In this document: in pieces, positions 36,987-63,918 of the stretch
Layout: every line of letters begins with the position of its first letter
Position numbering within the stretch: position 1 is the first letter of the stretch
Notes under the pieces: model-generated
What the model saw: the letters and a program-made list of their open reading frames with translations, nothing else
The model's database searches: none
What the model was told of the DNA's origin: nothing
From: a virus
DNA length: 64,000 nucleotides
Virus record (IMG/VR): IMGVR_UViG_3300007609_001168
Span: 1 to 64,000 of that record
Strand: one strand, 5' to 3'
Program-made: the position numbers and the translations under genes

Positions 36987-36994
36987 TTAAATAC
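36987..36994 (+). promoter_or_regulatory. Late-type promoter motif (TTAAATAC) for the plus-strand radical SAM operon
   Basis: The plus strand reads CTGATTAAATACTTTGTTCGCAAAGGTG before the ATG at 37015. It matches the TAAATAC core of the other late motifs. AAAGGTG is the ribosome site. It would drive the nine overlapping genes from 37015 to 46834. Confidence 0.5.
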
Positions 36995-37014
36995 TTTGTT
37001 CGCAAAGGTGTCCA

Positions 37015-37719
37015 ATGAGAATAGTAGCTTTCGGTGATAGTTTTACAAATGGCCTTATAAAATTACCTAAAAGATACACACAAGAAGAATCTCATCAAAA
37101 CAGTTTTGTAAACAAAATGTTTCAGTCTAGTAAAATATTTACTGATTATTCAAATTTAGCCGACAACGGTTGTGGTAATAGACAGATAGCATCTAAGATT
37201 TATAAATGTTTACTTGAAAAGAAAATCAGCAAGAACGATTTTGTATTTATTGGATGGTCTAGTTTGACTAGAACAGCATTATGGGACAACGAATATTATA
37301 AAACTCCTGATAACAATGTTGTTGATTATAAACAGTTGATTTATGATACAGAATCTAGTATACTTAGTACACACATGATACTGAAATTACAAGGAATCCG
37401 ACACTGCATGATACAAGCGTTTCATGATTATTCAAGCCAGACAGACATAAAATATCTGCTAGAAAAGAATATCAATTTCCCGTGTTGGATAAATTTTCAA
37501 AAAAACAATAACACCCTTATGGATATATGTATGTTGAGATATTTGAGCGAGGCAAAGTTCAAAGATATCAAAAATCATCATAAAGAAAAATATGTTCAGC
37601 ATACAAAATACCTTGCAGAATGTTATCATCCTAACGATGCAGGGCATAGATTAATAGCAGAAACACTGAGACCCATTGCGGAAATATATGCTACTACAGA
37701 TAAAAGTTTAGAGTATTAA
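37015..37719 (+). CDS. SGNH/GDSL hydrolase-like protein
   Basis: 234 aa. Block I is GDSFTNG (7-13) with Ser9, NGCGNRQIA supplies the Asn block, and the C-terminal HPNDAGHRLIAETL carries a proper D-x-x-H catalytic pair (D208, H211). Of the three SGNH-like proteins in the window, only this one keeps all the expected residues. Such enzymes remove acyl or acetyl groups from esters or glycans. It opens the nine-gene plus-strand operon; the next gene, a radical SAM fusion, starts 8 bases after its stop. Confidence 0.75.
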   Translation: MRIVAFGDSFTNGLIKLPKRYTQEESHQNSFVNKMFQSSKIFTDYSNLADNGCGNRQIASKIYKCLLEKKISKNDFVFIGWSSLTRTALWDNEYYKTPDNNVVDYKQLIYDTESSILSTHMILKLQGIRHCMIQAFHDYSSQTDIKYLLEKNINFPCWINFQKNNNTLMDICMLRYLSEAKFKDIKNHHKEKYVQHTKYLAECYHPNDAGHRLIAETLRPIAEIYATTDKSLEY

Positions 37720-37727
37720 GGATAGAA

Positions 37728-39719
37728 ATGCAAAGATACAAAAAAGAAATTGCCAGAGTAACATTAGTCGAACCCGAATCCGGCGACTACTTAGATCTTT
37801 ACTTCAGGCTTTATGACATTTCTATCACAAACAAATGGATTCATAATTTTAAACAACTAAAATCAGGACCGCATAGCTTCAGAGAAAAAAATGTATTTCT
37901 AAGGTCTTACAATCGTAGCCTATTGGATGATATTAACGAGTGTATAGAAAAAATTAATAACTTTTATGACAGACCTTTAGAATCTATAAACAATCTAACC
38001 GAAGAATCGTTAAACTATCTACACGAATGTTATGAAATTTACGGTAAAAGACTAAATGAACATTTAGAAAAAAGATGGTGGGATAGCGCATACAAAAAGA
38101 TTTCCGTAAACGACCCGGAAGCAATGGTCTGGCCTGGTAGATCATTTAACGAAGATATGCATTTTTCGTTTATCAAATTAAATGAACTCATTCATAAATC
38201 GGAATTTGCCGACGAAAGACGTTCTCCAGGAGCAATTGTTCTCGGCAGTTTCAATAAAAGAACAGACCATATTCTAGAAAGAGACGATTATTTAACAATA
38301 ACTCCTTTTCTGAATTTCGGAGATTTCTGTCTTGGTTACAATACTCTCGGAAAAAATCTTCAACACATAATATTAGATAATGACGAAGATGCTGTGGCCA
38401 GAAATGCAATTGTTCCGCAACAAACATGGTCCGATGAGTTTTATATCCATCTAAAGTCCGACGAAACAAAACCTGATCATCTAATAGGTTATAAAGAAAT
38501 GTGGGACAATTTAAAAATCAAAGGATTCCAGTTCGGCAACTTTATTGCTAATAAAGAAGGATATATCAAACTAGGGGAAATGATCCCTGAGCAAAGAGCG
38601 AAACTCTACAAAAACGATCACACTCTTATTGATTTTAAAAAATACACAGACCTACAAGATATAACATTGATTTCAACCGATGAATACAAAACAGGAGTTC
38701 GTTTCCCGGAGTTCAAGAAACCTTATAAGAAACAAGGAAAAGAGATCGTAGCTGTAGATACTGATAATGTTGTAATGATTACATGGATATTAAATAATAT
38801 TTGCACCTACAGTTGTAGATATTGTCCTCCAAATTTACACAACGGAAAAAACTACAGATACGAGTGGGAAGATATAGAGCCATTTGTGTCCCATTTACTT
38901 AAATTTTATCGAGGAAAGAACATTGAATTTAATTTAAGTGGTGGCGAACCGACACTTAGTCCCTTTTTTCCTATGCTGGTTAAAAAAATTTACGATAGCG
39001 GAGCGTATGTAGGTATAACCACAAATCTCGCAAGAAGTACTAGATTTATAAAAGATAATTTTAAATATTTGAAATTTGCGTGTTGTAGCTTCCATCCTTA
39101 TTACGAATTTCAAGACGAAAAATATAAAGAGTTTTTAGAGAAAATTAAGGAATGTGCAAACCATTGCCATACAACAGTCCGGGTTATGATGGACCCGTTA
39201 CACTGGGATCAAACAGTGGAATTTGTAGAAACTCTAAAAAAATTAAAGTGCTGTAAAGTAGAAGTAGTATATATTGATAATCAGTACGGCAGTACACACA
39301 AACAGCTGATTGACATAAGTTATACGCCAGCCCAAATAGAATATATCAAAAACTTCGAACCTTTTCAAAAATTTGATGCAAAATGGAGTAAATCTGAATT
39401 ATGGTCGCCAATGCCTACGAAAGGTGATGTAATTTTTTCCGACGGTTCTAGAGAAGAGTTGGGAACTGCACAAAAATATATTAATAACGGTCAGGCAAAC
39501 TTTTTCAATTACTCGTGCGATATAGGTAAGAATAGTTTGTTTATTGGCCCAAATGGTGAGGTCAGAAAAGGAAATTGTTTGGTCGGAGGAAAAATTGGAA
39601 CTGTTGAGAATTGGAGAGGAATAGACTGGAACGATCTCAAGCAATCAATAATTTGTAATTCATTGTGCTGCCATTGCGGCGCAGATGTTGTAATCTCCAA
39701 AAGGAAACGCAATGCGTAA
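37728..39719 (+). CDS. Radical SAM enzyme fused to a large unknown N-terminal domain (663 aa)
   Basis: Residues 1-340 have no recognised domain; part of it (ITPFLNFGDFCLGYNTLGKN, about 191-210) is glycine and aromatic rich and could be a substrate-binding fold. The radical SAM core follows with C359, C363, C366 (CTYSCRYC) and SGGEPTL at 404-410. The C-terminus has further cysteines (YSCDIG, GNCLVGG, CNSLCCHCGAD), suggesting an auxiliary Fe-S cluster as in its neighbours. It overlaps the next gene by 8 bases. The fusion is almost twice the size of the other radical SAM proteins here. Confidence 0.85.
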   Translation: MQRYKKEIARVTLVEPESGDYLDLYFRLYDISITNKWIHNFKQLKSGPHSFREKNVFLRSYNRSLLDDINECIEKINNFYDRPLESINNLTEESLNYLHECYEIYGKRLNEHLEKRWWDSAYKKISVNDPEAMVWPGRSFNEDMHFSFIKLNELIHKSEFADERRSPGAIVLGSFNKRTDHILERDDYLTITPFLNFGDFCLGYNTLGKNLQHIILDNDEDAVARNAIVPQQTWSDEFYIHLKSDETKPDHLIGYKEMWDNLKIKGFQFGNFIANKEGYIKLGEMIPEQRAKLYKNDHTLIDFKKYTDLQDITLISTDEYKTGVRFPEFKKPYKKQGKEIVAVDTDNVVMITWILNNICTYSCRYCPPNLHNGKNYRYEWEDIEPFVSHLLKFYRGKNIEFNLSGGEPTLSPFFPMLVKKIYDSGAYVGITTNLARSTRFIKDNFKYLKFACCSFHPYYEFQDEKYKEFLEKIKECANHCHTTVRVMMDPLHWDQTVEFVETLKKLKCCKVEVVYIDNQYGSTHKQLIDISYTPAQIEYIKNFEPFQKFDAKWSKSELWSPMPTKGDVIFSDGSREELGTAQKYINNGQANFFNYSCDIGKNSLFIGPNGEVRKGNCLVGGKIGTVENWRGIDWNDLKQSIICNSLCCHCGADVVISKRKRNA

Positions 39720-40416
39720 AATTTTAAATTTTGGTTGTAGTCATACCAACGGTGCAGAGATTGACGAACCGTGGTCGGGAGAAAGACCCGATCTAGCTTA
39801 TGGCGCTGTTCTTTCAAAGATGATAGATTACAAAGTCGAGCAGATATGCGGGAATGGTTGGAGTAACCAATGGATAATTAAAAATGCGTTCAATGCGTGT
39901 TTAGAATACATTGATAATAAAGATAAGCCGTTTATTCTCGTCGGATGGACATCAGTTGAACGAATGCCGTTGCAGTTTGCTGGTCAAGGCACAGTTTATC
40001 ATGCAACAACAAATTTACCCCCAGAACCTAAATATTATCCTGTTAGGAATTATGAAAGAATACACAGTACACTTTGGGGTTCTTCTGTTAACAAACCTGA
40101 AATGACTGAAATGCGATTATCTAATATATTAGGGTTCCAATCTTGGTTGAAAGAACATAATTTTCCATTTTTATTTTTCTGGGCCGTTAATAGTGCTGAT
40201 ACTAAAGTGCTAGAAAAATATAGCATGTGTTTTGATCCTTGTAGATTTTATGAACCAATTCAACACGATGAGTCTTACTGGAGATACTATCTTAATAATT
40301 ACTATGATAAGTCTAAAAGATGGGCAAAACATGCACCTGCGGAGTTCCATAGGCACTGGGCACATAAGCTTTATACGTATATTTGCAAACACAAGTTGCT
40401 GGATCTAAATGTTTAG
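39712..40416 (+). CDS. SGNH-like protein (degenerate)
   Basis: 234 aa. It begins MRKILNFGCSHTNGAEID, block I of SGNH hydrolases, and has CGNGWSNQWI and VGWTSVERM, like the neighbour at 37015 (IGWSSLTRT). The C-terminal His/Asp block is unclear (EFHRHWAHKLYTYI). Common descent with the 37015 gene is likely. It may have lost hydrolase activity or use other residues. It is embedded between radical SAM genes with 8-base overlaps on both sides. Confidence 0.65.
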   Translation: MRKILNFGCSHTNGAEIDEPWSGERPDLAYGAVLSKMIDYKVEQICGNGWSNQWIIKNAFNACLEYIDNKDKPFILVGWTSVERMPLQFAGQGTVYHATTNLPPEPKYYPVRNYERIHSTLWGSSVNKPEMTEMRLSNILGFQSWLKEHNFPFLFFWAVNSADTKVLEKYSMCFDPCRFYEPIQHDESYWRYYLNNYYDKSKRWAKHAPAEFHRHWAHKLYTYICKHKLLDLNV

Positions 40417-41905
40417 CATATCGAAAGGAACATTAAATTTAGATCATCCTGCTTGTAAAAGCCAGATTGATTTCTTTGCGGGACAAAATTTTAACAAAGT
40501 GAATATTGATAACTTTTGTTCAGGCCACTACGATCATAGAATTGCCAAGCACTTTTATTTTTCAGTCCACCCGGCAGATCTCCCAATTACAGTTCTTGTA
40601 TACGGAGAACAAATCCTAAATATACATCCCGGAACTTCTAGGGTGCTTGCATATTATCTATCTGATAAGAAAAAAATTCCTGCAATATTTTTACAGGTTG
40701 GTAGCATGAAAGAATTAGAATTTGCAGAAAATGTTCAATCTATTACTGAAAAAAACGAACTTACCTTGGTCAATCAAAACGACAAGCCGAATAAACATTT
40801 TTGGCAAATAAATGTTATTGACCAAGAATACTATAAAAAGATCGAAAACGAAAAACAATTATCAAAAAAGTTTAAAGAGTTTTTTTATAGTTGTTTAGAT
40901 CAAAACTCTGTAGATACTTTAAAAAAAGAATATCTAAAAAATAATCAGAAAAAATTCTGGAAACTGTGTTCACAAATTGCTAGAGAAAATTTTAACAAAA
41001 AGTTAGCAATTAAACCTCAAAGAACCGGAGCGTGGCAATACAACAGTGATTTTCATTGGAATGTATTTTTTAAAAACTATGATGTTTTTTTGGTAGAGAT
41101 GTTACCGAATGCAATGAGTGAATTCATAGCCCATCCTAATGAGATAGAAAGTCAAAGTCGCTGGATTAAAAAATACAAAGATACTGAAAGAAAATTTCCT
41201 GAAATTTTTATAAACTACGAGCTAGACGAGTTTGTCAAAGATTACACAGAAATTTACGATTGTTTAAAATCGGAAAATCATAAAATAGCCGATTTGGTAG
41301 ACAACAAGCTCTGGATGAACTGTAAAGGATATGAATATATAAAAACCATACAAAGTGTTTATAAACATGGTGGCATTAATTATAGTTCTAGCATACTAAC
41401 AAACATCTGCGGAGAACGAAACTTTAAGTATCATCCTGGAAGGCATTTATCGTTTGCCAAGCGATTTATAGGACAACCGGATATTCATTTTCTAACAATT
41501 AAAAAGCAGGATCGCGAATGGTTAGATCAGTATGACAAAGTTAAAATTATAACCCAAATAGAAACCAAGAACCAAATTTTAGAAAACATGCCTAAAGAAA
41601 TGACAGATGTCAGCACATGGCTTCAGGGAACTTTTCCTGTATATACGTGGCCGTTTGTGAACGGAGAAATTAAACTGCCTACTACTGAATGGGGAGATTT
41701 AAAAGATGACTGCGGCTATACTGTGATAACTAAATCTGGAAAAGAAGAAAATATGAAAGTGTTTACTGAATACGCAAAAATTTTAAAAAACACTGATTTA
41801 CAGAATCTGTATAAAGGAAAAAAGAAAAACCATAAAAAGCTAAATGAAAGATATCTGGGGTTCCTGTTGAACAATCAAGAAGGTGACGAATTTGAAAAAG
41901 GTTAA
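40409..41905 (+). CDS. Large island protein of unknown function
   Basis: 498 aa, no recognised family and no Fe-S motif. The N-terminal region has GHYDHRIAKHFYFSVHPADL and LNIHPGTSRVLAYYLSDKKK, with several His and Arg that could bind a ligand; the middle is Lys/Glu-rich and helical; the C-terminal part has TWLQGTFPVYTWPFVNGE. Tight overlaps (8 and 14 bases) place it within the radical SAM operon, so it probably serves the same pathway, perhaps as a carrier, transferase or substrate-binding subunit. Confidence 0.7.
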   Translation: MFSISKGTLNLDHPACKSQIDFFAGQNFNKVNIDNFCSGHYDHRIAKHFYFSVHPADLPITVLVYGEQILNIHPGTSRVLAYYLSDKKKIPAIFLQVGSMKELEFAENVQSITEKNELTLVNQNDKPNKHFWQINVIDQEYYKKIENEKQLSKKFKEFFYSCLDQNSVDTLKKEYLKNNQKKFWKLCSQIARENFNKKLAIKPQRTGAWQYNSDFHWNVFFKNYDVFLVEMLPNAMSEFIAHPNEIESQSRWIKKYKDTERKFPEIFINYELDEFVKDYTEIYDCLKSENHKIADLVDNKLWMNCKGYEYIKTIQSVYKHGGINYSSSILTNICGERNFKYHPGRHLSFAKRFIGQPDIHFLTIKKQDREWLDQYDKVKIITQIETKNQILENMPKEMTDVSTWLQGTFPVYTWPFVNGEIKLPTTEWGDLKDDCGYTVITKSGKEENMKVFTEYAKILKNTDLQNLYKGKKKNHKKLNERYLGFLLNNQEGDEFEKG

Positions 41906-42857
41906 GTTTGAAAGGGTTAACTTAGAATTAGTCGGCGGCTGCAATTATACCTGCCAGATGTGTCCTCAAAGTACCGGCAGAGGAAAAGAGTGGACTAAAA
42001 AACTGCCTTTCGAATTATTCGAAAATATTTTAGATCAATTAGACGGTAATCCATTAATTGGACTACACGGTTCAGGAGAACCTACATTGATTAAAGATCT
42101 TCCTAGATACGTTGAAATCTGTAAAAAAAGAAATTATAAAGTGTTCATTAATACCAACGGTTTTAAATTGCACGGAAAATTTATGGAAGACGTAATTAAT
42201 GCAGGAATAGATTGGATAAGGTTTAGTGTTGTAGGATATAATTCTGAGACTTATAAAGATTGGATGGCGGTAGACAACTTTAATAAAATTGTAGAAAACA
42301 CCATAGAGACTTCCGAGTATATCAAAATAGTTAATTCGCACTGCAAACTTTTAAGTTATCATTTAATACTTGACTCTAACAACATAGATTATGAGATTGA
42401 TCAATATAGAAAAAACTATATAGAGAAAACCGGTACACACGGGTACATATGGAAAATGCATAACTGGAGTGGTAATTACCAGCCGTTATATTTAAGAGAT
42501 CCGGCAAAGCGTAAAACCTGCGGCAGACCGTGGGCACCTGATATCACAATCAGGGCCGGAGGCATAGATAAGTTACACGGTGCTGTTGTTCCTTGTTGTC
42601 AAACAATGGGTCCTCCTAACGAAGCAAAAAGTGTTCTCGGACACGTTGAAACTGAAACAATTGACGAAATATGGAACGGACAATTATATCAAGAACTGCG
42701 TGATGCACATTCCAAAGGTAATTTTGATTCAATTGACTATTGTAAAGACTGCGATCTTTTATATCAAGAAGATGAAAGTTTAATATGGAGTAATGCACCG
42801 GGAGCTTTTGACGGCAAGTTAATAGGAACTGACGTAAATCTAAAGGATTTTATATGA
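41892..42857 (+). CDS. Radical SAM/SPASM-type enzyme
   Basis: 321 aa from a TTG at 41892, which has AGAAGG at 7-base spacing; a GTG 9 bases upstream overlaps that site and is less likely. The motif CNYTCQMC gives C17, C21 and C24, followed by GSGEPTL (60-66) as the GGEP variant. Near the C-terminus TCGRPW, VVPCCQ and YCKDCD supply the cysteines of a SPASM-like auxiliary cluster region. SPASM enzymes often modify peptides or handle sugars. Substrate unknown. It overlaps the next gene by 4 bases. Confidence 0.9.
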   Translation: MKKVKFERVNLELVGGCNYTCQMCPQSTGRGKEWTKKLPFELFENILDQLDGNPLIGLHGSGEPTLIKDLPRYVEICKKRNYKVFINTNGFKLHGKFMEDVINAGIDWIRFSVVGYNSETYKDWMAVDNFNKIVENTIETSEYIKIVNSHCKLLSYHLILDSNNIDYEIDQYRKNYIEKTGTHGYIWKMHNWSGNYQPLYLRDPAKRKTCGRPWAPDITIRAGGIDKLHGAVVPCCQTMGPPNEAKSVLGHVETETIDEIWNGQLYQELRDAHSKGNFDSIDYCKDCDLLYQEDESLIWSNAPGAFDGKLIGTDVNLKDFI

Positions 42858-43855
42858 CAGATTTTTCAAAAATTCCTTTTGAAGATATAATCAAAGTCGG
42901 ACAGAGAACATTGCTAGATCGTCCATTATTTACTGTTAGTTGGATTCTTGGTAGATTCTGCAACTACAATTGTAGTTACTGCTGGCCATATGCCAGAAGC
43001 TCAACTCCGGATCATTTCGATCTCGATGTTTATCTAAAAGGAATTGACGAAATTAAACGGCAAGCGAGAAAGAACGGATTCACTGAATTTCACTTTAGTT
43101 TTAGTGGAGGTGAGCCCACTGCATACAAACAGTTTAATAAAGTGCTAAAACATTATTCTGAAGATGCAGACCCTGAATACCAAAGCTTGCACATGACCAC
43201 AAACCTTTCTCCTGCAAAAAAATGGTGGGAGAAGTTTGTAACAGACACATATAAATTACAGAGAAAAAGTATAACAGCAAGTTTTCATGCCGAACATGCA
43301 GATGAAACAGAGTTCGGTGATAAATGTCTTATGCTTATGGATGCAGGAGTATTTGTAACTATAAATCAAGTTATGGTTCCTGAACTGTTTGACGAATATT
43401 ATGAAAGATGCCAACGGTTTTTTGCTAGAGGAATCAATGTAACGTTAAAGCCTCAAAGCGATCCAACAGCAAGTTATATAGTAGGCGGATATACAGAATA
43501 TCAGAGAAAGATACTGCAAGAAAATTTTCCGCAAAAAATTCCATCGAAATATAAGAGTGATATACCTCTATTACAAATCGAGTTAGAAGATAAATTTTCT
43601 AATAAGTTTTACTTAGATCAAGCAGAACGATTTAACGCTTTTGATTTTAATAAATTCCAAGGTTGGTCTTGTAATTCTGGTTATCAAAGCTGTATAATTA
43701 GAAGTAATGAAGTAAAAAGAAGCTATTCATGTCACGATGAATCGTTAGGAACACTGACAGACGGATTTGAGTTGTTTGCTAATTCAAAAGTTTGTATTAC
43801 TCCGTCGTGTGTTAGCAGTGCAGATAGTAAAATACCTAAGGTTAAACATGTATAA
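42854..43855 (+). CDS. Radical SAM enzyme
   Basis: 333 aa. CNYNCSYC (C36, C40, C43) and SGGEPTA (84-90) are clear. Later cysteines (WSCNSGYQSC, YSCHDE, and a C-terminal pair) suggest a further Fe-S site. Its organisation resembles the radical SAM genes at 4597, 46831 and 47873, with a WSCN- or WFCS-like Cys motif after the barrel, so these may form a family of paralogues. It starts at an ATGA overlap. Confidence 0.88.
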   Translation: MTDFSKIPFEDIIKVGQRTLLDRPLFTVSWILGRFCNYNCSYCWPYARSSTPDHFDLDVYLKGIDEIKRQARKNGFTEFHFSFSGGEPTAYKQFNKVLKHYSEDADPEYQSLHMTTNLSPAKKWWEKFVTDTYKLQRKSITASFHAEHADETEFGDKCLMLMDAGVFVTINQVMVPELFDEYYERCQRFFARGINVTLKPQSDPTASYIVGGYTEYQRKILQENFPQKIPSKYKSDIPLLQIELEDKFSNKFYLDQAERFNAFDFNKFQGWSCNSGYQSCIIRSNEVKRSYSCHDESLGTLTDGFELFANSKVCITPSCVSSADSKIPKVKHV

Positions 43856-44837
43856 ACTAAATGAAATTAAAGAAATACATTTAGAAACAACATCTAAGTG
43901 TCAAGCAAGATGTCCTATGTGTCCTCGCCGTTTAAATGGAGGATCTATTAATCCATTAATAACGCTAGATGAAATTTATCTGGACGATTTTAAAAAATGG
44001 TTTCCGGTACATTTTCTTCAAAATTTAGACCGACTGTTTATGTGTGGAAATCTAGGTGATCCGGTTGTTGCTCAAGATACACTTGAAATTTTTCAATACT
44101 TAAGAGAGATTAATCCGGATATTCAATTGAGCATGCATACTAACGGAAGCGCAAGAACCAAAGACTGGTGGCACAAATTAGCACTTGCTGATGTTGAAGT
44201 AACCTTTGGCATCGACGGGCTAGAGGATACACACAGTCTTTACCGCATAAACACAGACTGGGCTACTATTATTAAGAATGCACAATCTTTCATTGATGCA
44301 GGCGGGAAAGCAAATTGGCACATGTTAGTGTTTAAACATAACGAACATCAGATTGAAAACTGCAAGCAATTAAGTTTAGAGTATGGATTCAAATACTTTA
44401 GTATAAAACACACCAGTAGGTTTAAAGAAAATAAGTTGCACGTGATAGACGATGCTGGTAAAACTGCTTATAAAATTTATCCTACCCAAAAAAGTCTAGA
44501 CATGATACCTAAGGTAACACAATTCTATACCGATCAAAGTCCGTGTATTAAGTGTAAGGCTAAACAACAAAAACAAATTTATGTTTCAGCAAACGGAAAT
44601 ATAGCTCCGTGTTGTTGGCTAGATATGCAATACAAATTACATATACAAGATACCAGGATAGACTATATGGATAAAATAGAACAGTTTCCTAACCTTAGAG
44701 AAATGTCAATTGAAGATATATTTTCCTCTGATTATTTTAAAAGCATTGAAAAAACTTGGGCAGATGATCCGTTGTTAGAATGTTCAAAACAATGCGGTAG
44801 TTTCGATAAATTACAGGAGCAATTCGTTGAAAGTTGA
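43848..44837 (+). CDS. Radical SAM/SPASM-type enzyme
   Basis: 329 aa from the ATG at 43848, 8 bases inside the upstream gene and preceded by AAGG. CQARCPMC gives C18, C22 and C25. The GGEP position is replaced by CGNLGDP (about 64-70), a common variant in SPASM enzymes. CIKCKAK, IAPCCWLDM and CSKQCG near the end give a SPASM-like Cys set. It is followed, with an 11-base overlap, by a methyltransferase-like gene that may act on the same substrate. Confidence 0.88.
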   Translation: MYKLNEIKEIHLETTSKCQARCPMCPRRLNGGSINPLITLDEIYLDDFKKWFPVHFLQNLDRLFMCGNLGDPVVAQDTLEIFQYLREINPDIQLSMHTNGSARTKDWWHKLALADVEVTFGIDGLEDTHSLYRINTDWATIIKNAQSFIDAGGKANWHMLVFKHNEHQIENCKQLSLEYGFKYFSIKHTSRFKENKLHVIDDAGKTAYKIYPTQKSLDMIPKVTQFYTDQSPCIKCKAKQQKQIYVSANGNIAPCCWLDMQYKLHIQDTRIDYMDKIEQFPNLREMSIEDIFSSDYFKSIEKTWADDPLLECSKQCGSFDKLQEQFVES

Positions 44838-51419: not shown

Positions 51420-51443
51420 GTTAACGATAAGGGTGTGAGTATA

Positions 51444-56420: not shown

Positions 56421-57481
56421 TACATCATCCTGTATTTTTCAGGAACAATATCTAATAACGGCATTGCTTTATTTACAAGTCTGTCTCTTAGCAATACTTG
56501 ATGGACAAGGGGAGAAGTAGGGTATCCTGGAAGCATGTCCGCCCAAGATTCGGTTTGCGTTTCGTTAAGGTCAATAGTTCTAAGATCGGGCCACTGAATT
56601 AATTTTACCATTACTCCATTTATTTCTACAGGATAGTGTGCTCGGATTCCTTTGTCGGGCCTTGGAACAAAAGACCATCCCATATTGTTAGATATCTGTT
56701 CCGACCGACTAACTAATTCACTCATAAACATTTTTTCGTGATCAGGACATCGACCTATATCTGTGCCTACCCGAATTCTATACATATCACAGTAGCCTTT
56801 ATCTGAGTTAAACTGCTGTATTTCTTGTAGACAGTATTCTAATTGATCAAAACTTTCTAGTGTATAACTAATATTTTTAATCGGTAATCCGTGTATCAAG
56901 CAGTTTTCTAAACCCGCTATTTGTTTTTCTCTTACCTTCGGGCCTTGATAATCCGGATGATTAAGTCCAAATGTGAAATACACATTATCAAATTTGTCGA
57001 ATTGACTAATGTAATCGATCTTAGAGAGGCGCACTCCGTTAGTGAGTATTATTATATGACGGTTACTGATGAAATTAATTCTTTGAATCAACTCGGGCAA
57101 ATCATCTCGCACTGTAGGTTCTGCACCCATGAGCACTACAGCATGTTGGCGAGGCATGACGTTGACTTGATCTAGTATCTGTTCAATGCTAGGATCGGAA
57201 CTGTAATTGTCTGGCAATTGGTAACAATGCGGGCATGCTAAATTACAGCGATTTGTAATATCTAAACATACCGCATTATAAAATTTCTGTAAATCTCTTT
57301 TGGGATAATTATAATTTAGGTAAAAATCAGCATCTTTTTCTACAAGAAAAGTTTCAGTTCCGTGATCAGGACAAGTTTTTCTGATCCATACAGCATTATT
57401 CTCTACAAAAATTTTTGCAGGAATGTGTTTATAGCAATGGGTGCAAAGAGATAATGTTTCAGAGTTTGTCATAATAAGCAT
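56420..57481 (-). CDS. Radical SAM enzyme, COG1964-like (zinc-ribbon N-terminus)
   Basis: 353 aa. The N-terminus LSLCTHCYKHIPAKIFVENN, then RKTCPDHGTETFLVE, is the Cys-rich lead-in typical of the MJ0619/COG1964 family, which includes tetraether-lipid synthases. The core is CNLACPHC (C79, C83, C86). GGEP appears as LMGAEPTVRDDL, an Ala for Gly change. COG1964 members usually are longer at the C-terminus; this form is short. The ATG overlaps an ATAAATA motif and lacks an SD; a second ATG at 57472 fits a leaderless message better. First gene of a seven-gene operon. Confidence 0.8.
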   Translation of the reverse strand: MLIMTNSETLSLCTHCYKHIPAKIFVENNAVWIRKTCPDHGTETFLVEKDADFYLNYNYPKRDLQKFYNAVCLDITNRCNLACPHCYQLPDNYSSDPSIEQILDQVNVMPRQHAVVLMGAEPTVRDDLPELIQRINFISNRHIIILTNGVRLSKIDYISQFDKFDNVYFTFGLNHPDYQGPKVREKQIAGLENCLIHGLPIKNISYTLESFDQLEYCLQEIQQFNSDKGYCDMYRIRVGTDIGRCPDHEKMFMSELVSRSEQISNNMGWSFVPRPDKGIRAHYPVEINGVMVKLIQWPDLRTIDLNETQTESWADMLPGYPTSPLVHQVLLRDRLVNKAMPLLDIVPEKYRMM

Positions 57482-57488: not shown

Positions 57489-57514
57489 GGTAAGTATTTT
57501 GCTAAGGATTGTTT

Positions 57515-58198
57515 ATGACATACGAATATTACTATAACGATGTTCCCGGTATGGGATTAACTCGTAATAATCTTATCTATACAAGTTTAATAAACAAAGA
57601 AAAAACTATGTTTGTTCAATGGTATTATAATGATACAGGATATCATTTCGGCCAGAACGAAGTTGTAGATCCTGCAAAAATGAATGAAAAATGGGAACGT
57701 GAAGTAAAATATCTAAAGCTAATGACGGATCACTTTCCTCAGCATGTCCCAAAAATATATAGGATCGACTATGCAGAAAAGAAAATTTTTCTACAAGTAG
57801 ACGGTACTGATTTTTGGAATCAAGCGGCTTGCGATCAAAAAAACTATAACGCAGTATTACCAAACTGGCAAGAGCAAATGCTTGAAATTATACAAGCACA
57901 TAAAAGTCTAGGTTTGCACAAATATTCTATGCATCCCTCGAGCTATTTTATTGTTAACGGAAAATTAAAAAGCATCAACTATTTCTTTACCTATCACAAA
58001 GATGAAGACATAATAAGTATTAAAGAAGTAGAAAGCCATATTCACAGTAATCGCCAGGCGGAAATGAAAAAACATCTAGCAACACTTGGTATAGAATGGA
58101 ACAAGCCGCAACCTTGGACGGTTATGGACAAACTGTGTTGGAACAGTTTCAGAACAAACTATCCCGAAGACTTTATTGAAAGGGCACTCGATGTATAA
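57515..58198 (+). CDS. Kinase-like protein, paralogue of 50730
   Basis: 227 aa from the ATG at 57515, six bases after AAGGA. It aligns with the gene at 50730 over most of its length. The kinase-like catalytic block is HPSSYFIVNGKLKSINYFF, where the metal-binding Asp of the IDF element is Asn, so if the fold is right this copy is probably a pseudokinase. It is followed, with an 8-base overlap, by the acetyltransferase-like gene. Confidence 0.5.
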   Translation: MTYEYYYNDVPGMGLTRNNLIYTSLINKEKTMFVQWYYNDTGYHFGQNEVVDPAKMNEKWEREVKYLKLMTDHFPQHVPKIYRIDYAEKKIFLQVDGTDFWNQAACDQKNYNAVLPNWQEQMLEIIQAHKSLGLHKYSMHPSSYFIVNGKLKSINYFFTYHKDEDIISIKEVESHIHSNRQAEMKKHLATLGIEWNKPQPWTVMDKLCWNSFRTNYPEDFIERALDV

Positions 58199-58742
58199 AA
58201 TTGTCACATATTCCGACGAACTAGATTTGCGAGAATTTTATGCAGAAGCCGAAAAGAAGGGTTTTGTGAATAACTCCACAAAACACATGCTAATAGATTG
58301 TTTTCGCAACGAACGAGAAAGTCAGACTTGGATTCTCTATTATAACAATCGAGCAGTAGGTAGTGTTGCCGCACACTCATTCGACGAAATGGGGAAGAAC
58401 TCATATCGCATTGCCGCACGGACTTGTGTATTTACAGATGCAATACCTACACCTACCCTTAGAACACGAAATCAAATAGTAACACAACAACATGCTACTG
58501 GACAATTTTTAATTCCTGCATGTATCGAATGGGCGGGCAGAGAAAATAATTTATACATCACCTCAAACAATCTAGAAGGCGGAAGCCAACGGTTGGTACA
58601 TAATGTTTATTTTCCCGCTATGGTTAAAACAGGGCAGGCCGAAGAAATATGCGAAATGGAGTATAGGGGAACCTGGCAAAGTGTTTGGCGCTTAAATGTA
58701 GATAGATTTTACGAAGAATTAAACAAATATCCTAGATGGTGA
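58191..58742 (+). CDS. GNAT-like acetyltransferase (tentative)
   Basis: 183 aa from the ATG at 58191, six bases after AAAGGG. Strands such as TWILYYNNRAVGSVAAHSF and YRIAARTCVFTDA resemble the beta2-beta4 core of GNAT enzymes, with a later helix and the conserved-looking IEWAGRENNLYITSN. A clear acetyl-CoA loop (R/QxxGxG/A) is not seen; ATGQFLIPACIEWA is the nearest. It could acylate an amine on a sugar or peptide. The end overlaps the convergent hydroxylase gene by 11 bases. Confidence 0.5.
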   Translation: MYKIVTYSDELDLREFYAEAEKKGFVNNSTKHMLIDCFRNERESQTWILYYNNRAVGSVAAHSFDEMGKNSYRIAARTCVFTDAIPTPTLRTRNQIVTQQHATGQFLIPACIEWAGRENNLYITSNNLEGGSQRLVHNVYFPAMVKTGQAEEICEMEYRGTWQSVWRLNVDRFYEELNKYPRW

Positions 58743-59325
58743 TATTTAAATTATAGATATTGTCAAATTCTTCAGTGTTACATATAATAATAACATGAAC
58801 TCTGGTATTATGGCCGCAGTTTACTGTACCATGCATTTGTTTAACATCAAGAATATATGCACTACCGGGATACATATGATCAAATCCGTCTTCAGTTGAC
58901 CACCATTGTGTTTCGTCAGAATAAATCGGAATATGTATCTTTATCTTATCTTTTTGATCAGTGTGCGGTGTTACAATTGTGCCAGGTGGTGCTACGGCTA
59001 CTATACTTCTATGGGCGGTATAAAAAGAATCGATTGCTTTTGCCGCCCAGTCTACACAACACCCAGTTTTTTTGTACAGTGTATAATCGTCAATTTCATT
59101 ATTTTCAAACGCATGATACTCTCTGTTAATATCTTCGTATATAGTTTGCAATCCCCAGCCGTAAGCCTTATCGTCCGCCCAAGGATTTTCGCAAGCGCAT
59201 CCGCCTAGTCCAACCCATTTTTGATCTTGAAAATCAGTAACCAACCGATCATACCATGCACGAGCTGAATCTATATCTATTTTTAAATTAGGAATTTCTG
59301 TAATAACTTTTCTTTTTTCTTGCAT
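58732..59325 (-). CDS. Aspartyl/asparaginyl hydroxylase-like 2OG oxygenase
   Basis: 197 aa. VAPPGTIVTPHTDQKDKIKI carries H121 and D123; KQMHGTVNCGHNTRVHVII carries H165 and R175; MYPGSAYILD lies between. This fits the hydroxylase subgroup seen at 59893. An N-terminal Cys-rich part (GLGGCACENPWADD) is extra. It is separated by 1 base from the short fibre-like gene upstream. Confidence 0.8.
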   Translation of the reverse strand: MQEKRKVITEIPNLKIDIDSARAWYDRLVTDFQDQKWVGLGGCACENPWADDKAYGWGLQTIYEDINREYHAFENNEIDDYTLYKKTGCCVDWAAKAIDSFYTAHRSIVAVAPPGTIVTPHTDQKDKIKIHIPIYSDETQWWSTEDGFDHMYPGSAYILDVKQMHGTVNCGHNTRVHVIIICNTEEFDNIYNLNITI

Positions 59326-59326
59326 A

Positions 59327-59896
59327 TTAGTGTAAATCTATCCAGGATCCGTTAGCATAACCTTGGAACTTATCTATATCTTCGTTATAGATGATCATTC
59401 CGTTTTTAGGCTCAATTTTATTTATAGTTTCGTTGTTTTGTTTTACACACTGAAATATTTTAGATTGTAGAGCACCGTCTTTGTTAAACCGCCAGACTCG
59501 GTAATCATTAGCATATTCGCCTTCTCCGTCGCCGGCATTGACAAGGATATTCAGATTACTTGCCGGTGCCGGATGATTTATGTTTGCAGATTCATCTACT
59601 TGCGGAACTAACGTTGCTATACTTTTAGCAATATCTCCATCATCTTGTTCAAAAAAAGTAGTGAAGCTCATATTCATTCCGTAATCGCCCGGGCGAAGAA
59701 CTTTAGGATCTTCTGTAGAACCTCTTACTGTGTGTATATCTAATTTTGGTTTACTGCCACCGTTGTAAACACCTGTAAATCTTGCAACAACATTGCCGTT
59801 GGTTTGTATCTTTATTGCACCTTTCTTATCTACAATAACTCTATGTCCAACATCATCAAATGATGATATTAAAATATTTTCTCCATTATCCTTCAT
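59327..59896 (-). CDS. Short fibre-type protein sharing a C-terminal module with the 445-aa fibre
   Basis: 189 aa. Nearly its full length aligns with the C-terminal 170 residues of the gene at 61978: PAPASNLNILVNAGDGEGEY and ANDY, then NGMIIYNEDIDKFQGY and SWIDLH, against NAPASNLAFSISAGDGEGDV and ANDY, GMVIFNSDTQKYQGY and GWINLH. It lacks the N-terminal attachment domain. It may be a free copy of a fibre tip or a chaperone-like domain. It lies between two hydroxylase genes with a 4-base overlap upstream. Confidence 0.7.
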   Translation of the reverse strand: MKDNGENILISSFDDVGHRVIVDKKGAIKIQTNGNVVARFTGVYNGGSKPKLDIHTVRGSTEDPKVLRPGDYGMNMSFTTFFEQDDGDIAKSIATLVPQVDESANINHPAPASNLNILVNAGDGEGEYANDYRVWRFNKDGALQSKIFQCVKQNNETINKIEPKNGMIIYNEDIDKFQGYANGSWIDLH

Positions 59897-60546
59897 GTTA
59901 GCACCTCAGAGTTATGATAAGAGCCGGAAATATTTTGATTCTCACATGCGGCATTTAATTTTTCCTTCCATTCGTTAGTTGAATCGAATCGGTGAATTAT
60001 TAAATGATAACGATCCTCGTTGCTATTGTTATAAACAGAATGTGGATAATGTATGTTCATGACATAGGTATTTCCAGGCTTCATATACAAAGATTCGCCG
60101 TCTCCCCACTTCCAAAGACATGTTTCGGGATTGCTTAAACTAATATTTGTATTATCAAGCAATGGAACACTCGAATCAGTATGTTCGGAAATATAGCCTC
60201 CTGCTTCTAAAAGCATAAATCTAACTCTTCCTAGTAAGTTACTAGGAAAATAATTTTTAACAAAATCAACAGTTTTAGGACAATATTTAGATAATTCAGT
60301 CCAGTGCATATCATTTATTACTTCGTCAATACTGTTATAACCATAGTCTTTCCAATGACCCGACTGCTGGTGCCGCCACCCGTGAAGAACTAAACTTCGC
60401 CATCCTTTATGATCATAACTTCCCGGACGGTGCGTCACGAAATGTGTTTTCAATGCTTTTGCTTCTTCTAACATGCTAATGTGGTCTACATCGATATCTA
60501 GAATAACATGTTTTGCATTTGAAACAAAATAATCTTTACTAATCAT
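59893..60546 (-). CDS. Aspartyl/asparaginyl hydroxylase-like 2OG oxygenase
   Basis: 217 aa. RVRFMLLEAGGYISEHTDSS contains H122 and D124; MNIHYPHSVYNNS holds H169, and R179 follows in EDRYHLIIH. NTNISLSNPETCLWKWGDG is the usual strand between. This is a good match to the aspartyl/asparaginyl beta-hydroxylase fold. AAGGATAAGG precedes the ATG. It is the first gene of a three-gene minus unit with the short fibre protein and a second hydroxylase. Confidence 0.85.
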   Translation of the reverse strand: MISKDYFVSNAKHVILDIDVDHISMLEEAKALKTHFVTHRPGSYDHKGWRSLVLHGWRHQQSGHWKDYGYNSIDEVINDMHWTELSKYCPKTVDFVKNYFPSNLLGRVRFMLLEAGGYISEHTDSSVPLLDNTNISLSNPETCLWKWGDGESLYMKPGNTYVMNIHYPHSVYNNSNEDRYHLIIHRFDSTNEWKEKLNAACENQNISGSYHNSEVLT

Positions 60547-60585: not shown

Positions 60586-61986
60586 ATGCTACAAAAAATA
60601 CCAACCTCTCAACTAAAAAAACCTATTCTAATTTGTATACATGATATTTTAGACACCTGTTCATCTGATTGGTCGAAAGAGATTGCAAAAAATTTATCAG
60701 ATTATATGATAAATCGATTTCTAAATAACGGCTATGATGTGTGTATAGGAACAGACGAAAACGAGTTATTAGCACAACCAACCGATCAGTATACTCATGC
60801 AGTAGTCATTGCTTCGGGAACAAGTCCTAAGCTGTCTGACAGAATAATTTATGCTATCGAAGACAAATGCAAAGAAGACTTTTATATCGCAGGACATGTT
60901 TTAGACAGAAAAGAAAAATATTTTGAATTACATCATCAGTTTTATATTATCAACTTGTCGACACACAAGGATCTTGGGTTTCCTTCTTTGGGTGAAGAAT
61001 CGGAAGTAGAACATGTAAGAATTCAACCTATTTCGAATAGTGAAGATGAATATATATCGCAAGAATTATGTTTGGGAGATTCAAACACCTTATATAAAGG
61101 AACCATGCATGGTTGGAATATTTTAAACACTGCTCTTATAAACAATAAAAAAGTAATAGACCTCGGTAGTGATATTAGAAATAACAAACGATATTTTTAT
61201 TATGAATACGATCATGTATTTTTGAGAGAATCTACCGAACTGTTTTACAATCAATTTCTTTTTAATAACATAGTAGTTCCGTTTAACAGTGACGAATTGA
61301 GAAACAATATAGATAAAGACGGTCCTATAGAACAATATATTACGTTAGGCACCGGAATTAACTGGGTAGAAAATTTACATCTAATCGGTTTCAGTGAAAG
61401 AACAGAAGTGTTTTTTACCGACATAAATCCATTAGTGTTACAGTTTATGCAACGAATGGTCAACGACTGGGACGGAAAAGATTATGTTGATTTTTATCTC
61501 GAACAAGATTTTTTACTGCCAAATCACATCACTTATGATTACGATAATTTTATTGCACAAGCAAGGACCCAATGGAACAATTTCCTCAATAAAGTGGATA
61601 ACTGGCAAGAAAAATGGAACGCTGTAAAAAAATTAAAGTTTCATTTTATCTCGATAGATTATATGAGTGATTACAATCTAGACTGGTTCGAAAATGATAA
61701 AAACACTGTTTTTAACGCAAGCGATATGTTCGATCACATACCAGGAGTGTTCCAGCAAAGTATGAAGTATAGAATAGCGGCTGAAAATCGATTCCTAAAC
61801 AAATTAAAGGAAAAAGACTCGAATATTTTCTTGTTATGGAGCAGTCGATCAGCAGGTGCATTTATACCTAAGACATGTCGTTCGTCTTCTGGTGTAGTTT
61901 CTAAGATAGATTTGATTGATATAAACGAACTAATTCGTCCTTATTGGCATAAGGACGATTGGAATGTTCTTAGACCTTTAGTGTAA
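60586..61986 (+). CDS. Island protein, possibly methyltransferase-like C-terminal part
   Basis: 466 aa. The N-terminal half (KKPILICIHDILDTCSSDW, THAVVIASGTSPKLSDRI) looks like an alternating beta/alpha fold. From about residue 245, QYITLGTGINWVENLHLIGF then EVFFTDINPLVLQFMQRMV resemble a SAM-binding G-loop followed by the acidic strand, so a methyltransferase is possible. No family is recognised. No Shine-Dalgarno is seen; TTAAATAAATTC stands before the ATG. It is a single plus-strand gene whose end overlaps the 445-aa fibre gene by 9 bases. Confidence 0.65.
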   Translation: MLQKIPTSQLKKPILICIHDILDTCSSDWSKEIAKNLSDYMINRFLNNGYDVCIGTDENELLAQPTDQYTHAVVIASGTSPKLSDRIIYAIEDKCKEDFYIAGHVLDRKEKYFELHHQFYIINLSTHKDLGFPSLGEESEVEHVRIQPISNSEDEYISQELCLGDSNTLYKGTMHGWNILNTALINNKKVIDLGSDIRNNKRYFYYEYDHVFLRESTELFYNQFLFNNIVVPFNSDELRNNIDKDGPIEQYITLGTGINWVENLHLIGFSERTEVFFTDINPLVLQFMQRMVNDWDGKDYVDFYLEQDFLLPNHITYDYDNFIAQARTQWNNFLNKVDNWQEKWNAVKKLKFHFISIDYMSDYNLDWFENDKNTVFNASDMFDHIPGVFQQSMKYRIAAENRFLNKLKEKDSNIFLLWSSRSAGAFIPKTCRSSSGVVSKIDLIDINELIRPYWHKDDWNVLRPLV

Positions 61987-63315
61987 ATTTATCCAGCCAG
62001 GAGTGCCGTTAGATACTCCGCCACCAGCAAGACCTGTATCATCTACATATCCCTGATATTTTTGTGTATCTGAATTAAATATTACCATTCCTGCAAGAGG
62101 AGTAATACTGGAAATTTTTGATGCGTCTTGCTCTGCATATTTTACAATTTTAGATTCAAAAGCACCGGTATAGTACATGGTAAACTGATGGTAATCGTTT
62201 GCTACGTCGCCTTCACCGTCGCCTGCACTAATTGAGAAAGCTAAATTAGATGCCGGTGCATTATCCGATGCTGTTGCAGAAGAGTCCATCTGACTTAGAA
62301 GACTTGCCAAACTCTTTCCGATATCATCTCCAGCACTATCGAAATAAGTAGAAAATACAAGTTGGCTGGTCACGTCGCCCGGGCTTACTGTTGCAGGACT
62401 TTCAAATGATCCGCTTACAACATGTAATTGTATTTTCGGAATTGACCCACCGGATTTAAGTCCGTTTATACGTAAAACCTGTTCTCCTTCCGATCTAATA
62501 AAGGTACCTTGTGTTGTATCAACAAATACTTTACCCAACCCACCGGCGTCTTGAATGCTTGAAGTTACAAGACTTCCTGTCAACGTGCCGTCTATTGCAT
62601 CAACTATGGGTGTGCTATCGTCGCGGAATACAGAACCAATTACATCACCATTTAGTGTACCATTAAATGTTGCTGTAGCAGAGTCCACAACTAAAGTGCT
62701 ATCGTCACCGACGATATTAATATTAAAGTTAGTCCCGTTAACAATTTCTGCTCCGGTGCCAATTGTTGAGCCGCCTATTGTGGATCCTGCTGGCAAGTTC
62801 ACAGCAGTACCTGTCGATGTTATCGTTGCATCACCTAAAAATAGACTAGATCCGCTTAGATACAAGTCTCTAAATTTATTGCCAGATGTACCTAGATCAT
62901 ACACGCTGTCTGCGGCTGGCACAATGTGTGATCTAATTGTGCCGTTCAAGTTAAACGAACCTAAAACACCATCTACCAAGATCTGCGAGTCGTCTGCAAA
63001 TACTGAACCTTTAAAGCCGTCTGCACCTATTACACCTTGATAATTAGAAAGATCTTGACTTACTGTGGCAACAACTTTGTTTAGAACATCGTCGTAAGCA
63101 AAACTAACACCTTCGTGATCGCTATGAGATGTGAATAAATCCGCAGAAGCATCTTGTGCTTCTTCAGCGGTAAAATTGGCAGCCGCAATTCCTCCTGCGG
63201 TTGATCCGTTACCTATAAAAAGTTGTTCTAATTGAGTATCCCAAATCAGTTCACCTTCGACGGGTGTGATTGCATTTCTGTCTGCGGTAGGACCTCTTCT
63301 AATTTGTAAAGGCAT
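61978..63315 (-). CDS. Tail fibre protein with Mtd-like N-terminal domain
   Basis: 445 aa. The N-terminus (PLQIRRGPTADRNAITPVEG, ELIWDTQLEQLFIGNGST) matches the small attachment domain of phage tropism determinants of the Mtd N-terminal type. The shaft has motifs shared with the 11-13 kb fibres: GSVFADDSQILVDGVLG, YDLGTSGNKFRDLYLSG, and GSVFRDDSTPIVD. The C-terminal 170 residues are shared with the short protein at 59327. A late box (63348-63355) precedes it. Probably a receptor-binding fibre. No reverse transcriptase is nearby, so no sign of diversity generation. Confidence 0.82.
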   Translation of the reverse strand: MPLQIRRGPTADRNAITPVEGELIWDTQLEQLFIGNGSTAGGIAAANFTAEEAQDASADLFTSHSDHEGVSFAYDDVLNKVVATVSQDLSNYQGVIGADGFKGSVFADDSQILVDGVLGSFNLNGTIRSHIVPAADSVYDLGTSGNKFRDLYLSGSSLFLGDATITSTGTAVNLPAGSTIGGSTIGTGAEIVNGTNFNINIVGDDSTLVVDSATATFNGTLNGDVIGSVFRDDSTPIVDAIDGTLTGSLVTSSIQDAGGLGKVFVDTTQGTFIRSEGEQVLRINGLKSGGSIPKIQLHVVSGSFESPATVSPGDVTSQLVFSTYFDSAGDDIGKSLASLLSQMDSSATASDNAPASNLAFSISAGDGEGDVANDYHQFTMYYTGAFESKIVKYAEQDASKISSITPLAGMVIFNSDTQKYQGYVDDTGLAGGGVSNGTPGWINLH

Positions 63316-63347
63316 ATCGTAATGACTCCAGATAAGATTGTTACAGA

Positions 63348-63355
63348 GTATTTAT
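63348..63355 (-). promoter_or_regulatory. Late promoter motif (ATAAATAC)
   Basis: The minus strand reads TATGATAAATACTCTG, 33 bases before the fibre ATG at 63315. It is identical in core to the motifs at 2190-2197 and 21061-21068. Confidence 0.6.
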
Positions 63356-63918
63356 CATATATACTCTATATCTGCCGCGATTACAAATCGATTTTCTGAG
63401 CTGGTATAAATGCCCGGTCTGTGCCAAACACTGCTTGGATATATCAACCAGGTATGCGGCTGAGGTTTAACATACACAGTATTTTCAAATTTCTCGCCAT
63501 CGAGACTCATCTCGGTGCCCGACAAATCATAATCCGTAACATCGTCTGGTATGTGAGCATAATATATTCCAGACAGCATGGGAGTGGTTTTATGCTGATG
63601 GTGATGCCATAGATTGTTGCGATCTTCTGCGGTTTCTTTATTGGTCATAAAGCTCCAAGCCATCAAGTTAGATATCTTTGCTTCTCTGCCTAAATACATA
63701 AAGACCGCAAACATAAAACTCATTCGGTATTTCAACCACACAGGCTCCGACCGTGCAAAAATATTTTCTTCGGTTTGAAACCTTGGGGAATTTTTAAAAT
63801 AACCGCCAGCGTCTATTATGTTCTTAACAATTTCGCATGCTGTTTGATCGTCCTGTTCAGTAATGACCGAACTGAAGTCGAATTTTCTAAAAAGATCGTC
63901 CTGTTCTATAATATTCAT
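63355..63918 (-). CDS. 2OG oxygenase-like protein with altered metal motif
   Basis: 187 aa. The region NNLWHHHQHKTTPMLSGIYY, then HTWLIYPSSVWHRPGIYTSS and NRFVIAADI resembles 2OG oxygenases of the type found in marine phages, with H166 and R177 as second His and 2OG Arg. The first motif is HxH (H105, H107 or H107, H109) rather than HxD. The Fe ligand set may therefore differ or the enzyme may be inactive. It directly follows the partial gene at the right edge. Confidence 0.6.
   Translation of the reverse strand: MNIIEQDDLFRKFDFSSVITEQDDQTACEIVKNIIDAGGYFKNSPRFQTEENIFARSEPVWLKYRMSFMFAVFMYLGREAKISNLMAWSFMTNKETAEDRNNLWHHHQHKTTPMLSGIYYAHIPDDVTDYDLSGTEMSLDGEKFENTVYVKPQPHTWLIYPSSVWHRPGIYTSSENRFVIAADIEYI

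Follow-up and report, generated by a model that had tools for sequence, protein, structure and literature searches.

What could a virus build with ten radical S-adenosylmethionine (SAM) enzymes encoded in a single island? The question is raised by the window, the stretch of 64,000 nucleotides analysed here, which corresponds to positions 1–64,000 of the 67,471-base virus record G000 (IMGVR_UViG_3300007609_001168). Its island (37,015–63,918) holds 30 genes, and 167 of its 26,904 bases are intergenic. An earlier note, written from the letters alone, had seen in this island a multi-step pathway that builds or modifies a virion component, a glycan, a peptide or a metabolite, with virion or receptor-binding modification as a first idea. 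Here we report that a set of enzyme families encoded in the window is retained together in related phage loci and partly in two bacterial metagenome-assembled genomes (MAGs), and the island is thus well supported as a real multi-step biosynthetic pathway. Our reading of its output is more tentative: we hold it somewhat short of an even chance that the pathway is exchangeable and makes a sugar-containing group, radically modified and with a surface-related role.

A seven-family core across viral loci

How can a pathway be told from a pile of unrelated genes? We scanned viral sequences with the protein encoded at 45,422 (family C0) and kept the best 80 of 161 relatives (80–100% identity). Together with the window, these gave 81 C0 loci, 23 of which extend 7 kb or more to either side of C0. 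After the locus of the window's twin (L002) was dropped and the rest were dereplicated at 97% C0 identity, 13 loci remained. Open reading frames (ORFs) were called mechanically, and the families were assigned with hidden Markov models (HMMs) built from the same loci; the counts from the initial ORF clustering were taken without dereplication, and some of their loci overlap or are nearly identical.

All 13 dereplicated loci contain C0, C1 and C2–C6, a core of six radical SAM families and one methyltransferase-like family (C1). C0, C1, C2, C3, C5 and C6 lie within 7–16 kb of sequence, with their order and strand shuffled. Certain neighbours recur (C0–C4 in 11, C1–C2 in 10 and C3–C6 in 8 of the loci), and in the window C4 is retained although it lies ~40 kb from C0. 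Such a set, kept without a fixed order, is what a pathway predicts, and the mapping of co-occurrence across related genomes, which the earlier note had suggested, therefore speaks for one. The opposite explanation, in which unrelated single insertions have piled up in a variable island, would account for the wide variation in gene order and accessory genes between the loci. However, it fails because the seven families recur as a set in all 13 loci, a result that largely refutes it, and we regard it as extremely improbable. Across 16 records (that of the window and 15 related ones), PF04055 finds 6–15 radical SAM matches per record at E ≤ 0.001, a range that is not a prevalence because the 15 records were chosen through C0.

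Enzymes of the island

Which enzymes are encoded in the island (Table 1)? hmmscan confirmed all ten of the radical SAM proteins counted there in the earlier note, each above the Pfam cut-off. In G000, PF04055 matches 11 genes, all above the cut-off, ten at 37,728–57,481 and one at 4,597–5,631, and the CX3CX2C motif can be read in each of the 11 translations. The count of eleven for the whole window and the readability of the motif are thereby borne out, and all 11 proteins belong to the radical SAM superfamily by domain and motif alike. C0 and C6 also pass the cut-off (170 bits) of the N-terminal-twitch family NF033640, and the other eight island radical SAM proteins fall below it. The protein at 56,420–57,481 scores 98 bits against the 450-bit cut-off of the tetraether lipid synthase Tes (NF045702) and is also under the TrsS cut-off, while the B12-binding match of 54,936–56,420 falls short of that expected of a cobalamin-dependent radical SAM methyltransferase. 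A profile search for C0 relatives among solved structures returned none at E ≤ 0.001. The true start of C2 is probably near 43,848. Separately, the 159-kb record G010 carries a second radical SAM group downstream of a gene for a 1,699-amino-acid protein (L090:9900–17700, ~114.9–122.6 kb), whose genes belong to none of the larger clusters.

The 2-oxoglutarate (2OG)-type oxygenases, of which nine had been counted in the island, are more mixed. HxD...H...(R)-like motifs are seen by eye in nine proteins (50,063; 51,435; 52,520; 53,044; 53,549; 54,133; 58,732; 59,893; 63,355), that of 63,355 being an H-rich variant, whereas two of the nine pass a Pfam cut-off (59,893 for Asp_Arg_Hydrox and 63,355 for 2OG-FeII_Oxy_5) and one more is placed by its fold. 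For this last protein (54,133), the titles of all 50 matches listed (Z 8.8–9.8) name 2OG or other non-heme-iron oxygenases, with a model of middling confidence (predicted local distance difference test score, pLDDT, 67) and low Foldseek TM-scores (0.24–0.40 by query length). The proteins at 51,435, 52,520 and 53,044 are interlinked through cluster HMMs, and 53,549 is assigned by motif alone. The count of eleven for the whole window is reached with two proteins outside the island (23,780 and 35,872), which are 2OG-type by motif only. Such abundance is ordinary in phages of this kind, as the cultured Pelagibacter phage Mosig shows: in its annotation, ten or more genes are called 2OG-type or Asp_Arg_Hydrox.

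The other enzyme classes that had been named stand in part. The SGNH-like protein at 39,712 passes the cut-off for DUF6071, and C1 at 44,827 is 29% identical to a Mosig protein annotated as a putative methyltransferase, whereas the proteins resembling short-chain dehydrogenases/reductases (SDR), kinases and acetyltransferases have no match above a cut-off.

Table 1. Genes of the island, with C4 and FdxA elsewhere in the window (window coordinates; loci, presence among the 13 dereplicated loci; aa, amino acids)
Feature	Position	Strand	Evidence	Loci
FdxA ferredoxin	2224..2550	-	NF045490 135.8 bits, cut-off 135	
Core C4, radical SAM	4597..5631	-	PF04055 above cut-off; C4 HMM 401 bits	
SGNH-like	37015..37719	+	Lipase_GDSL 17.8 bits, below cut-off	
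663-aa protein, N-terminal domain C22-like, C-terminal radical SAM C4-like	37728..39719	+	PF04055 34.4 bits; cluster HMMs	
SGNH-like, DUF6071	39712..40416	+	PF19547 35.6 bits, cut-off 27	
498-aa protein, family not assigned	40409..41905	+	Epimerase match, below cut-off only	
C26, radical SAM/SPASM	41883..42857	+	PF04055 and SPASM above cut-off	
Core C5, radical SAM, motif CNYNCSYC	42854..43855	+	PF04055 46.0 bits	13/13
Core C2, radical SAM, SPASM-like C-terminus	43767..44837	+	PF04055 and SPASM above cut-off	13/13
Core C1, methyltransferase-like	44827..45432	+	No Pfam match; Mosig homolog	13/13
Core C0, N-terminal-twitch radical SAM, hallmark gene	45422..46834	+	NF033640 391 bits	
C14, radical SAM	46831..47913	-	PF04055 56.3 bits	7/13
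Core C3, radical SAM	47873..48763	-	PF04055 41.4 bits	13/13
Core C6, second N-terminal-twitch radical SAM	48756..50024	-	NF033640 334 bits	13/13
C9, aspartyl-hydroxylase-like 2OG oxygenase	50063..50740	+	Asp_Arg_Hydrox 16.1 bits, below cut-off	12/13
C11/C17-related, kinase-like by eye	50730..51419	+	C11 HMM 127 bits; no Pfam match	
C10, 2OG-like	51435..51989	+	Motif; cluster HMMs	
SDR-like by eye	51982..52527	-	C27 HMM 28 bits; no Pfam match	
2OG-like	52520..53044	-	Motif; C32 HMM 124 bits	
C32, 2OG-like	53044..53559	-	Motif; cluster HMM	
C30, 2OG-like	53549..54133	-	Motif only	
C15, 2OG oxygenase	54133..54948	-	Fold and motif	7/13
Radical SAM, weak B12-binding-like N-terminus	54936..56420	-	PF04055 44.4 bits; B12-binding 20.3 bits, cut-off 32.1	
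C39, radical SAM with HMPTM zinc ribbon	56420..57481	-	PF23545 and PF04055 above cut-off	
C17, kinase-like by weak similarity only	57509..58198	+	PDB kinase matches E 0.17	7/13
C18, acetyltransferase-like by eye	58176..58742	+	No match above cut-off	5/13
Aspartyl-hydroxylase-like	58732..59325	-	Asp_Arg_Hydrox 22.2 bits, cut-off 22.6 (narrow miss)	
Fibre-tip-like protein	59327..59896	-	Resembles C-terminus of 61978–63315 (translations); no Pfam match	
C42, aspartyl-hydroxylase family	59893..60546	-	Asp_Arg_Hydrox 56.2 bits	
Methyltransferase-like, C12-related	60586..61986	+	Methyltransf_19 below cut-off; C12 HMM 316 bits	
Fibre-like protein, Mtd_N-like start	61978..63315	-	Mtd_N 24.1 bits, cut-off 26.3	
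2OG-FeII_Oxy_5 protein	63355..63918	-	PF13759 35.8 bits, cut-off 27	

Inheritance and bacterial copies

How is the set inherited? Clamp-loader-like, PhoH-like, ThyX-like and long fibre genes can be read from the translations of the window, and neither G000 nor its near-twin G001 is matched by the gp23 model. We read the source as an uncultured marine T4-like phage of bacteria. A chimeric or bacterial stretch is not favoured: G001, a virus record of 155,508 bases, carries the same radical SAM genes, all shifted by a constant 11,662 bases, and its C0 is identical to that of the window.

Between the records G010 and G013, the identity is 80.6% for C0, 69.8% for C6 and 42–64% for C1, C2, C3 and C5; among the virion genes it is 82.5% for gp23, 76.0% for gp21, 72.4% for gp20 and 52.1% for gp25. 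The near-equal conservation of C0 and gp23 would fit a gene set carried by the whole lineage, a reading that is countered by a capsid-based test. From the best 80 of 598 gp23 relatives, we tested the 12 contigs of at least 42 kb (176 and 210 kb for two of them, ~1.07 Mb in total). A C0 ortholog is absent from every one of these contigs, which come from a gp23 lineage that includes carriers (the highest profile score is 81 bits); PF04055 matches them at E ≤ 0.001 in six cases and above its cut-off in four. Single absences prove little, since the 12 contigs are fragments (together several genome lengths). With C0 missing from all 12, the cassette is probably patchy and exchanged, and C0 probably under strong constraint.

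Part of the set also occurs in a Bacteriovoracaceae MAG (L095, on a 103-kb contig) and a Halobacteriovoraceae MAG (L096, 329 kb). Homologs of C0, C1, C2, C5 and C8 lie within ~11 kb in the former and ~8 kb in the latter, and both have a PP-loop protein (QueC above the cut-off in L096, by eye in L095). L096 also carries an Asp_Arg_Hydrox-like gene below the cut-off, and its C0 is ~46% identical to that of G010. The bacterial clusters differ from the viral loci in that C3, C4 and C6 are not the best matches and further N-terminal-twitch paralogs take their place; NF033640 finds 28 and 25 matches in the L095 and L096 genomes (E ≤ 0.001), nine above the cut-off in each. Beside the bacterial copies lie further genes that look glycosyltransferase-like by eye. 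We take both contigs as chromosomal, since the surrounding genes seem bacterial on inspection by eye and gp23 is matched in neither genome.

In two further MAG contigs, the radical SAM clusters are denser still. The phage-looking contigs G019:C1, G018:C81 (L097) and L094 come from MAGs labelled Chloroflexi, Acidimicrobiaceae and a Thermoplasmata archaeon. G019:C1 (L098, L115–L118), with portal and terminase genes and a gp23 62% identical to that of Mosig, is by its gene content phage DNA in a bacterial bin; L097 is, at a guess, phage DNA as well, and L094 is a 3.5-kb piece of the radical SAM core.

Does the set mature a ribosomally made peptide product (RiPP), whose precursor is encoded elsewhere? 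The island proteins weakly match many RiPP radical SAM maturases, and small TAT-signal-like proteins are seen by eye beside both bacterial clusters. However, no RiPP maturase cut-off is passed, and with 167 intergenic bases, a stand-alone precursor gene in the island would have to overlap others. We consider this product class distinctly unlikely.

Partner genes and possible sugar chemistry

Which kind of product do the partner genes suggest? A GT-A-type protein (C8 or C36) is present in 12 of the 13 loci and a PP-loop ATPase in 11. The fold model was made for C8, and C36 is counted with it because C8-type proteins also match the C36 profile. For the C8 model (pLDDT 84.6), the GT-A enzymes SunS, TarP and ThuS lead the Foldseek matches, and B4GALNT1 leads a second structure comparison (Z 10.5). 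When ten partner proteins were scanned against Pfam, one UDP-glucose-dehydrogenase-type protein and one class-III aminotransferase of the relatives passed the cut-off, and seven of the ten, including C33 and the window proteins at 24,333 and 25,690, had no match. C33, which matches the annotated amidinotransferase of the Campylobacter phage CP220, occurs in 7 clustered loci (not dereplicated) and has no match in the window, in the G000 stretch L001 or in the G001 stretches examined. PDB sequence searches gave nothing useful for 24,333 and 25,690; these proteins look glycosyltransferase-like by eye and might, in the window, take the place of the GT-A-type partner. We rate the case for sugar chemistry as moderate, because the evidence comes from relatives and the window phage is without a GT-A-type or PP-loop partner.

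Phages hypermodify nucleic acids, and a DNA base or a tRNA could be the target here, since several island radical SAM proteins weakly match a QueE-like PHROG. However, the QueE-type matches are far under the curated cut-offs, the core is accompanied by GT-A-type, aspartyl-hydroxylase-like and fibre genes, and part of the set also occurs in the bacterial MAGs. Hypermodification of nucleic acids is therefore very improbable.

Fibre genes, late-promoter-like elements and a possible surface role

Is the product destined for a surface? The island itself encodes two fibre-related proteins. Short matches to the fibre proteins of the window also occur in relatives, ~4–8 kb from the radical SAM genes in the case of G002, G005 and G013 and at 14 kb in G010, whose second radical SAM group is ~5 kb from a long-fibre-like match. 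Mosig and CP220 have comparable clusters between VrlC or baseplate genes and fibre genes. The host recognition cluster of pelagimyophages sits between VrlC and the gp14 neck genes; in the G000 and G001 stretches examined, there is no neck homolog, and a single 42-amino-acid VrlC match falls inside the long fibre gene.

The timing of expression would bear on the same question. In the part of the source used here, NATAAATA is given as the late promoter of cyanophage S-PM2, and that of T4 and KVP40 as TATAAATA (PMC2984593). In the window, W-TAAATA (TTAAATA or ATAAATA) stands upstream of four of the nine heads of island transcription units, two of these four sharing one divergent gap, and of three of the 11 others (random placement, 0.14 and 0.21, respectively). 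CTAAATA occurs at chance level (17 vs 16.6). These elements hint at late expression of the island. The virion or receptor-binding role favoured in the earlier note thus gains from the fibre genes in and near the island, the late-promoter-like elements and the GT-A-type partner of the relatives; the support is circumstantial, and the GT-A-type partner is absent from the window phage.

Several points weigh against a sugar-containing surface group. The fibre-like matches in the relatives are short (46–134 amino acids), and nearness to fibres is weak evidence because phage genomes carry several fibre genes. The radical SAM matches of G019 lie outside the VrlC–neck interval. The window contains fewer strict ATAAATA sites than expected (12 vs 28.8), and among the four island promoter matches the strict form stands only at the fibre gene at 63,315; the relaxed motif behind these four matches was refined on the same upstream sequences and is partly post hoc. 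No match names a substrate: the two NF033640 proteins are the only ones to pass an NCBIfam cut-off among the ten island radical SAM proteins scanned. In the window, L001 and the G001 stretches examined, C7, C8 and C36 have no match, so that the GT-A-type and PP-loop partners are absent there. Finally, the TM-scores of the C8 model are ~0.2–0.4 by query length, and since nucleotidyltransferases of the same fold follow closely, glycosyl transfer by C8 is likely on the model rather than proven.

The same genes could act directly on virion proteins, the radical SAM and 2OG enzymes hydroxylating, methylating or cross-linking the side chains of fibres with no separate sugar product. The fibre genes inside the island, its aspartyl-hydroxylase-like proteins and the late-promoter-like elements would all fit, as would its SPASM domains and twitch radical SAM proteins, which are common among peptide-modifying enzymes. 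On the other hand, such a modification does not need the GT-A-type, sugar-dehydrogenase and aminotransferase partners of the relatives, and the partial copies in the two bacterial MAGs are apparently away from phage genes. We think direct modification of virion proteins unlikely.

A proposed pathway

How might the enzymes work together? The enzyme families, their joint occurrence and patchy spread, the partial copies in bacteria and the GT-A-like fold of the partner are observed; the product class, acceptor, timing and benefit are what we infer in the following scheme, which keeps to the sugar-containing group. Marine T4-like phages would exchange the island as a biosynthetic cassette, which may be expressed late. 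The radical SAM enzymes encoded there may rearrange, couple or methylate a precursor by radical chemistry, and the methyltransferase and the variable 2OG oxygenases would then tailor it. In most relatives, the GT-A-type glycosyltransferase would transfer a sugar, and the PP-loop ATPase would drive the formation of a bond with ATP. The product would most likely be a sugar-containing group of an unusual kind, placed finally on a surface structure, and the acceptor could be either the host envelope, for receptor masking or superinfection exclusion, or the phage fibres. A bolder version, in which marine T4-like phages own a complete natural-product-style pathway, partly shared with predatory bacteria, for a new class of radically rearranged glycoconjugates that control attachment on virions or infected-cell surfaces, also seems unlikely to us.

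A seven-family radical SAM core in each of the 13 loci is a well-defined target: a single pathway with a product to be found. The core could supply substrates for N-terminal-twitch radical SAM enzymes, and its product would reveal whether surface recognition in phages involves specialised molecules of their own making.

Metabolic genes of the two records

Could the cassette instead be auxiliary metabolism, with genes that boost that of the host? This role was proposed for the Campylobacter phages CP220 and CPt10 in the section of their description used here (PMC2853527). G001 carries metK, ahcY and serine hydroxymethyltransferase genes, all above NCBIfam cut-offs (L085:5672–6769, L084:2248–3534 and L083:4387–5562), and a full succinate dehydrogenase iron-sulfur subunit gene, sdhB, stands at the same relative place in G001 (L083:2234–2941) and in G000 (L001:6572–7279, that is, 66,572–67,279). 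The window has a ferredoxin gene, and FdxA is a possible electron donor to the radical SAM enzymes. However, the core is recognised as no known metabolic pathway, and metK and ahcY occur in one of 17 records, with no match in the 16 others searched, many of which are fragments. We judge auxiliary metabolism improbable, and self-supply of SAM is not shown to be a general feature.

G001 also carries GroEL, GMP reductase and ClpP-type genes (L084:7147–8745, L084:5378–6568 and L086:1674–2291). In the window, the protein at 2550–3452 is sulfotransferase-like at 21.4 bits, just under the Pfam cut-off of 22.

Comparison with known systems

Has such a concentration of radical SAM genes been seen before? 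The remark in the earlier note that known phage hypermodification systems do not have this many radical SAM enzymes may hold for such systems. For phages generally it does not: according to the sections of the 2010 description used here, CP220 and CPt10 have 11 and 12 radical SAM proteins, and their differing cluster, with five radical SAM genes and a putative glycine amidinotransferase, was read by the authors as an interchangeable, probably non-essential metabolic module (PMC2853527). The likeness to the window lies in many radical SAM genes, ten in our island, within one variable cluster; the C2 HMM recognises three CP220 radical SAM proteins, and C33 is the family matched by the amidinotransferase. 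In the CP220 cluster (NC_027997), two further genes are noted as nucleotide-diphospho-sugar transferases, and the cluster is preceded by a baseplate lysozyme gene and followed by a tail-fibre gene, with other genes between. In contrast, none of the 14 CP220 proteins compared matches C0, C6 or C1, the similarity is distant (~22–31% in BLAST pieces), the window is without the amidinotransferase family, and host and habitat differ.

In the excerpts used from the account of pelagimyophages, radical SAM cassettes are named within host recognition clusters, whose glycosyltransferases were suggested to alter the surface against co-infection (PMC7029224). As in these phages and Mosig (EXVC030M), the window has a large variable island, an arrangement that there includes fibres and glycosyltransferases. 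Between its VrlC and fibre genes, Mosig carries C1- and C2-like, Asp_Arg_Hydrox, aminotransferase and carbamoyltransferase genes. It differs in having two PF04055 matches, one above the cut-off, no C0 or C6 relative that we found, and a weak C5 score. Vibrio phage K566 resembles the island in four nearby N-terminal-twitch-like radical SAM proteins (L093:13962–20698), partly annotated as hypothetical, and its genome has six PF04055 matches, four above the cut-off; however, these are not the C0–C6 set, and they lie near nicotinamide-salvage genes.

The portions used of the CP220/CPt10 (PMC2853527) and pelagimyophage (PMC7029224) accounts name no product, and our literature searches found no study of the function of this cassette and turned up no paper on virion glycosylation. 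Compared with these systems, it seems to be new here that seven families form a fixed core, that this core is spread over many viral contigs, and that part of it occurs in relatives of predatory bacteria. A single pathway of this kind could also explain the radical SAM clusters noted in the Campylobacter phages in 2010, which were given, in the sections used here, a proposed role without a test.

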